From NCBI GenBank assembly GCA_020847735.1, contig JADLBL010000023.1, positions 62,001 through 126,000 on the forward strand: DNA of 64,000 nt, written 5' to 3'. Below the pieces are notes generated by a model. The model was not told the origin of the DNA. It ran no database searches and saw nothing but the letters and a program-made list of their open reading frames with translations. The position numbers were made by a program, and so were the translations under genes. Positions 4,833 through 17,509 of this stretch are shown here, one piece after another; the stretch's first letter is position 1, and each line of letters opens with the position of its first letter. This stretch comes from Candidatus Eisenbacteria bacterium (GTDB taxonomy: Bacteria; Eisenbacteria; RBG-16-71-46).

Positions 4833-6032
4833 TCACCGCCCCTGGACGCGTCGTGCGGCACCGAGCGCGGCGAGTTCGCGCTCGATCTCACGACGCAGCT
4901 CGCGCCATGCGGCGGCGACGTTCCGGTGGTTCGCCGCGACGTAGGCGCGCGCCATGCGCGGATCGCTCCTTGCCAGGCGCGTCATGTCCGCGAAGCCCGG
5001 CCCGGCGAGCCGGCGGCGCGCCGCGGCCGCTCCGGTGCGTGCGAGCGCGCGCGCGAGGACCCACGGCAGGTGGCTGGTGCGCGCCAGCGCCGCGTCGTGC
5101 GCCGACGGCGAGACGACGAGCGGCACGCCGCCGAGATCGGCGACCAGCGCGCGGACCCGCCGCGGCACGCCGCGACCGCACGGCAGCAGCGCGAACGGCG
5201 CGCCCCGGAAGAGCGAGGCCTTCGCCCCCGCGAGCCCGCGCCCCTCGCTGCCCGCGAGCGGGTGTCCGCCGCACGCGCGCACCCCGCGCGCGGCGGCGGC
5301 GCGCAGCGCCCCGCCGAGGTCGGCGCGGGTGCTGCCGGTATCCAGCAGCGCCGCGCCGCGCGGCAGCGCCGCCGCGACGCGCGCGATCACGCCGGGCAGC
5401 ACGTCCACCGGCACCGCGACCAGGGCGAGGTCGGCGCCCGCGCAGGCGGACGCGAGCGAGCGCGCCGCCTCGTCAATCGCGCCCGCGCGCAGCGCCGCGC
5501 GCGTCGCGGCGGAACGGGCGTCGAAGCCGATGCGCCGCCAGCGCGGGCGACCCGCCAGCGCGAGCCCGGCGGAGCCGCCGATCAGCCCGAGCCCGATGAG
5601 CGCGATGCGCCACGGCGCCGGACGGGCCCGGCCGCGCCGCCCGGTGCCCGCGCCCGCCGCGCTCCCGGCGAGGTCGGGCCGCAGCGCGGCGGCCCCGTCC
5701 AGGTAGACGGGCTCGAGTCGCGGTGCGCGGCCGCGCACGCGCGCCGTCACGAGCACGCGCACGATGCGCGCGGGCGCGCCGGGCACGTCGCTCTCGGTCG
5801 CGCCGAGGAGCGGCACGTCGGTCCAGCCGAGCCGCCGCGCGGCGTGCGCCGGGAAGTCGGCCGTCAGGTCCGGGGTCGTCGTGAAGAGCGCGCTCACGAT
5901 CGCCGACGGCGCGAGCCGGTTGCGCCCGAGCAGTTCCACGAGCAGGCGCGACGTCGCCTCCTGGATGGCCGCGCGCGTGTTCGCGCGCACCGACACGGCG
6001 CCGCGCACGGCGGCGATGGTTTCCCTCGGCAT
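4833..6032 (-). CDS. AroH-type chorismate mutase fused to prephenate dehydrogenase
   Basis: This 399-residue bifunctional enzyme carries out two steps of tyrosine synthesis: chorismate to prephenate, then NAD(P)-dependent oxidative decarboxylation to 4-hydroxyphenylpyruvate. Residues 1-121 are an AroH-class (trimeric beta-barrel) mutase with the equivalents of the B. subtilis catalytic residues: R10 (AVRG), E80 (TESDV), R92 (IVRV) and Y110 (VYLD). After a basic linker, residues 141-399 are TyrA, with the Rossmann GLGLIGGSAG at 147-156, DTGSTR at 231-236 and HPLAGSEG from H257. Known T-proteins fuse TyrA to the unrelated AroQ mutase, so this combination is unusual. The start is ATG 6032 behind GGGAGG. 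An attenuator-like leader precedes it. Confidence 0.93.
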   Translation of the reverse strand: MPRETIAAVRGAVSVRANTRAAIQEATSRLLVELLGRNRLAPSAIVSALFTTTPDLTADFPAHAARRLGWTDVPLLGATESDVPGAPARIVRVLVTARVRGRAPRLEPVYLDGAAALRPDLAGSAAGAGTGRRGRARPAPWRIALIGLGLIGGSAGLALAGRPRWRRIGFDARSAATRAALRAGAIDEAARSLASACAGADLALVAVPVDVLPGVIARVAAALPRGAALLDTGSTRADLGGALRAAAARGVRACGGHPLAGSEGRGLAGAKASLFRGAPFALLPCGRGVPRRVRALVADLGGVPLVVSPSAHDAALARTSHLPWVLARALARTGAAAARRRLAGPGFADMTRLARSDPRMARAYVAANHRNVAAAWRELRREIERELAALGAARRVQGR

Positions 6033-6061
6033 GAGTCCTCCCGGAGCGGCGGCGGGCGACG

Positions 6062-6096
6062 AAAAAAACCCGCCTCCGCGGTGGCGGAGACGGGTT
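6062..6096 (-). terminator. Rho-independent terminator / attenuator ahead of aroH-tyrA
   Basis: On the minus strand AACCCGTCTCCGC (6096-6084) pairs with GCGGAGGCGGGTT (6079-6067) around a CACC loop: 13 bp with one G-U. Seven T residues follow at 6068-6062. It lies 30 nt before the ATG of aroH-tyrA on the same strand, downstream of a short Tyr-containing ORF. It could simply end glgP transcription. The alternative pairing at 6131-6139 with 6086-6094 makes an attenuator the better reading. Confidence 0.85.
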
Positions 6097-6111
6097 CCTG
6101 GTGGGCGCCGC

Positions 6112-6186
6112 TTACGCGCGCACGTCCGGTCCCGTCCCCGCGCGGGGATAGGAGCGGCGATACGAACGGTCGGAGCGGATCGGCAT
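6112..6186 (-). CDS. putative leader peptide with two Tyr codons
   Basis: This 24-codon ORF starts at ATG 6186 and stops at TAA 6114. It has tyrosine at positions 9 and 13, both the rare codon TAT (6160-6162 and 6148-6150). The second Tyr codon directly precedes CCCCGCGCGGGG, a possible 1:2 hairpin. GGGGACGGG (6139-6131) can pair with CCCGTCTCC (6094-6086), the first arm of the terminator, so it could act as an antiterminator. This is the layout of amino-acid attenuators. There is no Shine-Dalgarno, but TAGACT lies 7 nt before the ATG, as at other apparently leaderless genes here. Five arginines also occur, so Arg cannot be excluded as the sensed residue. Confidence 0.6.
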   Translation of the reverse strand: MPIRSDRSYRRSYPRAGTGPDVRA

Positions 6187-6193
6187 GGCGGAA

Positions 6194-6199
6194 AGTCTA
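6194..6199 (-). promoter_or_regulatory. -10 box TAGACT, leaderless start of the aroH-tyrA leader
   Basis: TAGACT on the minus strand ends 7 nt before the leader-peptide ATG at 6186, so transcription should begin at or next to that A. Its first three bases are also the TAG stop codon of glgP. No good -35 hexamer is visible. The shared 40-bp element (6223-6262) ends 23 nt upstream. Confidence 0.55.

Positions 6200-16084: not shown

Positions 16085-17509
<1,425 letters not shown>

Follow-up and report, generated by a model that had tools for sequence, protein, structure and literature searches.

In the 64,000-nt stretch of DNA analysed here (the window), which comes from a 3.66-Mb genome whose closest named relatives are Candidatus Eisenbacteria, a strong hairpin with a T run lies on the minus strand between glgP and aroH-tyrA. 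Does this hairpin simply end transcription of the upstream gene, or does it belong to a switch of the downstream gene? A sequence-only reading had proposed a tyrosine-codon attenuator. Indeed, the parts themselves, their conservation together with aroH-tyrA, compensating changes in the pairings and agreement with a folding model of the nascent RNA all support this proposal. Very probably, the element is a ribosome-mediated transcription attenuator of the chorismate mutase/prephenate dehydrogenase fusion, with charged tRNA-Tyr as its signal; a response to tyrosine is predicted from it.

On the minus strand, a -10-like hexamer, a leader ORF, strands 2, 3 and 4, seven T's, a Shine-Dalgarno sequence and the ATG of aroH-tyrA follow one another in this order (Table 1). 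The hexamer, of the form TAnnnT, had not been noticed before; it overlaps the stop codon of glgP and ends 7 nt before the leader ATG. The 24-codon ORF with its two TAT codons was located as had been described, and the terminator, AACCCGTCTCCGC-CACC-GCGGAGGCGGGTT, folds with the 13 pairs and is followed by the seven T's ascribed to it. The gene was said to start 30 nt behind the T run; the spacing is indeed short, but 29 nt are counted between 6062 and the ATG at 6032. Similarly, the proposed 1:2 hairpin, CCCC-GCGC-GGGG right after the second Tyr codon, exists, but its stem exceeds 4 bp: TCCTATCCCC-GCGC-GGGGACGGGA forms nine pairs with one mismatch (-14.3 kcal/mol) and overlaps Tyr codon 13. 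Both arms of the 2:3 pairing are at their proposed places, the second being the first arm of the terminator, and the 1:2, 2:3 and 3:4 pairings make up the complete, mutually exclusive set that had been claimed, in which 3:4 is an intrinsic terminator with a U tract. The controlled gene carries CM_1 (1.1e-35), PDH_N (1.2e-20) and PDH_C (8.4e-14) domains of Pfam, and its product makes the precursor of tyrosine, the amino acid predicted to be sensed.

Table 1. Features of the aroH-tyrA leader region in the window, and loci of further amino-acid leaders in the family.
Feature	Position or locus	Strand	Remarks
-10-like hexamer TAGACT	6194..6199	-	overlaps glgP stop codon (6199-6197); sequence
Leader peptide ORF, MPIRSDRSYRRSYPRAGTGPDVRA, 24 codons and stop	6112..6186	-	TAT at codons 9 (6162-6160) and 13 (6150-6148)
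Strand 1, TCCTATCCCC	6144..6153	-	overlaps Tyr codon 13; 1:2 hairpin with 6139-6130
Strand 2, GGGGACGGG	6131..6139	-	5' arm of antiterminator and 3' arm of 1:2
Strand 3, CCCGTCTCC	6086..6094	-	3' arm of antiterminator and 5' arm of terminator
Strand 4, GGAGGCGGG	6069..6077	-	sequence
Intrinsic terminator 3:4	6067..6096	-	13 pairs, -24.8 kcal/mol; folding
Terminator T tract, seven T	6062..6068	-	sequence; first two T inside stem in fold
Shine-Dalgarno GGGAGG of aroH-tyrA	6037..6042	-	sequence
aroH-tyrA, AroH-type chorismate mutase fused to prephenate dehydrogenase, 399 aa	4833..6032	-	putative controlled gene; Pfam
DAHP synthase leaders	L128 (own genome), L125, L127, L129, L130, L131, L132, L134-L137		roughly 400-480 nt before domain
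His-rich leaders, HHHAHRHH type, strong terminators	L146, L147, L148, L150, L151, L152		upstream of hisG

A scan of the whole window on both strands for a terminator combined with a short ORF containing Y..Y and a 2:3 pairing of at least 8 bp matched at one site only, the aroH-tyrA leader, and 120 dinucleotide shuffles gave zero matches. Between 5900 and 6400, the hairpin at 6067..6096 is the sole terminator-like site. No leader family or T-box of Rfam was matched at the gathering score in the window and 19 loci, homologous loci included.

A competing explanation is that the hairpin merely terminates glgP, or any other gene upstream of it, while the ORF and the pairings are coincidental in GC-rich DNA. 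The window hairpin does lie right behind glgP, and GC-rich RNA pairs easily. For this reading, the relatives are informative. Among family genomes with the fusion gene, the upstream region is readable at eleven loci, five of which carry the module (window, L005, L006, L008 and L013; genomes G000, G005, G010, G012 and G013, from five genera). Thus the comparison that had been called for gives a positive result: terminator, Tyr-codon ORF and 2:3 pairing are kept jointly before aroH-tyrA in four other genera. The leaders are MFNRASYVCAYAYPPRGWASA in L005, MNNNAHAARYAYPIPLRGGLPT in L006, MVTARAHRYAYRRPGSGWVPA in L008 and MKHARRESGLYRYACPARGWAGA in L013. The directly upstream gene, however, differs: the window and L005 have glgP there, L006 and L013 a membrane protein gene that by eye resembles HupE/nickel transporters, and at L008 the upstream neighbour is on the opposite strand, which contradicts a glgP terminator. 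Because the whole module is kept before aroH-tyrA under three arrangements of the upstream gene, the hairpin is not the terminator of glgP; at L006, L008 and L013 it does not track glgP.

The other six loci lack the module. The gap between glgP and aroH-tyrA is a few dozen bases in L010, L034 and L035, and a different (membrane protein) gene lies closely upstream in L036. In L002 and L004, which belong to the genus of the window, strong terminator-like hairpins unrelated to that of the module are found within the last 60 nt before aroH-tyrA with no leader ORF; that of L004 sits behind glgP and thus favors the terminator reading. A locus that keeps the terminator while losing the short ORF, its Tyr codons or the 2:3 pairing was looked for as a sign that the hairpin belongs to glgP. 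None was found, since the loci without the module are also without its terminator, and the module is present beside neighbours that are not glgP or are on the opposite strand. Together with the kept and co-varying Tyr codons and 2:3 pairing, and with the absence of such architecture from the shuffles, this makes a coincidental glgP terminator very unlikely. In a protein tree of ten of the eleven loci (L013 was left out) plus L009, for which there is no upstream sequence, both main clades contain copies with the leader, which suggests an ancestral module that was lost several times.

The attenuator reading is further supported by the pairings themselves. The terminator has 12–13 pairs in each of the five copies, and the 1:2 hairpin has about 8–10, with the last Tyr codon overlapping it or directly adjacent. 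When the core blocks are aligned separately from the rest of the alignment, strands 2/3/4 read GGGGACGGG/CCCGTCTCC/GGAGGCGGG in the window and GGGG(G)TGGG/CCCACTTCC/GGAGGTGGG in the others, and two pairs of 2:3 and one of 3:4 differ on both sides. In a swap matrix, the pairing energy for strand 2 of the window is -23.3 kcal/mol when it is combined with its own strand 3 and -10.8 to -12.6 kcal/mol when it is combined with a relative's strand 3; for 3:4, the value is -25.1 with its own strands and -16.1 to -20.3 with those of the relatives. The covariation that had been suggested as a check is therefore visible in that the window differs from the other copies by compensating changes in both 2:3 and 3:4, but a shuffle control was not significant (71/500 and 160/500), at a low power given by three distinct core rows among five sequences. 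Because distinct rows were too few for this control, conservation with compensating changes was assessed by leave-one-out search and by the swap energies. When the window copy is left out of the covariance model, the model ranks it as the best match in the 3.66-Mb genome (47.8 bits, E 6.9e-11), the next match there having an E of 0.02. The five-copy model gives 83–95 bits for its five copies and at most 32 bits for everything else; several of these weak matches elsewhere in the class were read by eye and turned out to be coding sequence or unrelated terminators, with no aromatic leader seen at them. Likewise, the pattern GGGTGGG-N25-55-CCCACTTCC occurs once each in four family genomes, always at aroH-tyrA, and has one further match, in a distant genome, among 47 genomes, no more than the reversed control. 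The alignments and energies point to pairings conserved with compensating changes across the relatives.

How would such a leader work? Transcription would start at or beside the AUG of the leader. In each of the five copies, TAnnnT precedes the leader ATG by 6–8 nt, and a -35 element (TTGACG/TTGACC/TTGCTC) with a spacing of 17–18 nt is visible in L005, L006, L008 and L013; in the window, the -35 is weak and a promoter scan gave no promoter above threshold. From these positions, the leader mRNA is probably leaderless, and a ribosome would load on it as such. With ample Tyr-tRNA, the ribosome is expected to reach the stop codon and keep strand 2 from pairing; strand 3 would then be free for strand 4, and the terminator would turn the gene off. 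With scarce Tyr-tRNA, the ribosome would stall at the Tyr codons and cover strand 1, and strand 2 could pair with strand 3 before transcription reaches strand 4, so that the antiterminator would turn the gene on.

This scheme was followed in a nascent-RNA model, in which the RNA is cut just after strand 3 and the ribosome shields 13 nt from the A-site codon. With a ribosome stalled at any Tyr codon, the probability of 2:3 is 0.64–1.00 in all five copies, and with the ribosome at the stop codon it is 0.00 in all five; in this model, the ribosome position would decide between 2:3 and 3:4. Without a ribosome, 1:2 forms in L005, L006, L008 and L013, but not in the window copy, in which 2:3 forms with a probability of 0.98, so termination there would depend on a ribosome reaching the stop codon. 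The full-length RNA at equilibrium always prefers the terminator, and the choice must therefore be kinetic and made during transcription, like in known attenuators.

Another signal might be sensed by the same device: arginine, tyrosine together with further amino acids, or the overall speed of translation. In the window, the Tyr codons are flanked by Arg codons, of which the leader has six, and a Trp codon (TGG) is in frame within strand 2 in three of the five leaders. Moreover, for the aroR leader before aroF of Corynebacterium glutamicum, which contains Phe-Tyr-Phe, PMC11802643 reports that Phe limitation is effective while tyrosine availability is not (Neshat et al., 2014). However, the five leaders differ in the number and place of their Arg codons, but all have the Tyr pair before strand 1 (Y-x-Y in the relatives, Y-xxx-Y in the window; both TAT and TAC are used, and each leader has two or three Tyr codons with no long run). 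With a ribosome stalled at the Trp codon, strand 2 would be covered and termination favored, and the controlled gene belongs to tyrosine synthesis. A signal other than tyrosine is hence highly improbable. Control at the level of translation, or in trans by a small RNA derived from the terminated leader (a role reported for rhizobial trpL), is extremely improbable as the primary mechanism: the leaderless leader ORF and the terminated transcript do resemble Sinorhizobium meliloti rnTrpL (PMC7298713), but an intrinsic terminator with a U tract lies between leader and gene and competes with 2:3, and the Shine-Dalgarno of aroH-tyrA is outside the structure, although an added role of this kind beside attenuation would be compatible with these observations.

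Tyr-sensing attenuation would not be alone in this family. In the window genome (G000:C21, L097, reverse strand), pheA, with a DAHP synthase gene (L142) behind it, has a Phe leader, MTRDRLTFGFLFTRSRGAGGGRL, whose ATG is about 460 nt before the PDT domain. The logic is the same as in aroH-tyrA: 2:3 is a 10-bp pairing of GGGAGCGGGC/GCCCGCTCCC before a strong terminator, with a modelled probability of 0.88–0.89 upon stalling at Phe codons and 0.00 with the ribosome at the stop codon. A Phe leader is also found at pheA of G002 (L099). In many family genomes, including that of the window, DAHP synthase genes are preceded by a terminator and, before it, a Trp/Tyr/Phe-rich leader (e.g., MKNALQVWIWRWYGYAWRGREPALVR). 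These leaders share a conserved C-terminal end, WRWYG.AWRGRE.ALVR, which may do more than count codons; in the folding model, switching is supported for G005 and only weakly for G000. For hisG, six of seven genes have His leaders (e.g., MFLALHHHAHRHHARTGRGV...) before a terminator. No Rfam leader was matched at the pheA, DAHP synthase and hisG loci scanned. No Trp leader was found before trpE: in the copies read, the gene either begins directly behind or within the preceding one or lacks a leader; in L082, L083, L091 and L093, it begins where the preceding coding sequence ends, or inside that sequence, leaving no room for a Trp attenuator.

Acetolactate synthase had no match over the cut-off in the family genomes, and HisG and prephenate dehydratase are found in 7 and 5 of 20, respectively; either amino-acid auxotrophy is patchy or the models miss enzymes that have diverged too far. 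The window also encodes a second chorismate-binding enzyme (PF04715), at about 17072–17245 on the minus strand, about 11 kb from aroH-tyrA, and in G001, G005, G012 and G013 such an enzyme is also on the aroH-tyrA contig, 8–26 kb upstream.

Tyrosine T-box riboswitches are known to control tyrosine genes at the RNA level upon tRNA-Tyr charging. In contrast to the module, which has no Rfam T-box match, the T-box binds tRNA directly and has no leader peptide. A survey of Actinobacteria refers tyrosine genes to T-boxes and lists no leader-peptide attenuator for tyrosine (PMC1262725), and DAHP synthase genes of Escherichia coli are described in the literature as repressed by TyrR and TrpR. The mechanism proposed here is classical and not new: as in enterobacterial trpL-trpE, pheL-pheA and hisL, a short ORF with codons for the product amino acid overlaps strand 1, and alternative 1:2, 2:3 and 3:4 pairings with an intrinsic terminator precede a biosynthetic gene. 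The Eisenbacteria module differs from these in that tyrosine is predicted to be sensed, that the gene is a fused AroH-TyrA, that regulatory codons are two or three, that the transcript probably starts leaderless, and that no Rfam leader family matches. The C. glutamicum aroR leader, likewise upstream of a gene for aromatic synthesis, has a Tyr codon too, but, according to PMC11802643, it contains Phe-Tyr-Phe, responds to Phe limitation and not to Tyr, and controls DAHP synthase. S. meliloti trpL/rnTrpL shares a leaderless leader ORF within a transcription attenuator, but is a Trp leader before trpE(G) (PMC7298713). The uORFC-13-1 motif before aroF of Acholeplasma is alike in its predicted uORF and terminator before an aromatic pathway gene, but has Phe codons, another gene and another phylum (PMC8632094). 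Leader-peptide attenuators had been known from Proteobacteria and Actinobacteria, and Firmicutes were added (Naville and Gautheret, 2010; PMC2965389). No tyrosine-specific leader attenuator was found in the open-access papers searched, a scope that does not prove priority. The predicted tyrosine specificity, the lineage and the probable leaderless start for a Tyr leader appear to be new, and it is reasonably likely that this is the first classical attenuator for tyrosine alone, leaderless, and part of a lineage-wide set of Tyr, Phe, Trp/aromatic and His leaders in a candidate phylum from which such control had not been reported.

The module represents a compact natural RNA predicted to sense tyrosine, which is amenable to testing in E. 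coli. For the organisms themselves, these leaders suggest ribosome-coupled attenuation for several amino acids in an uncultured candidate phylum, and such control would imply close coupling of transcription and translation there.
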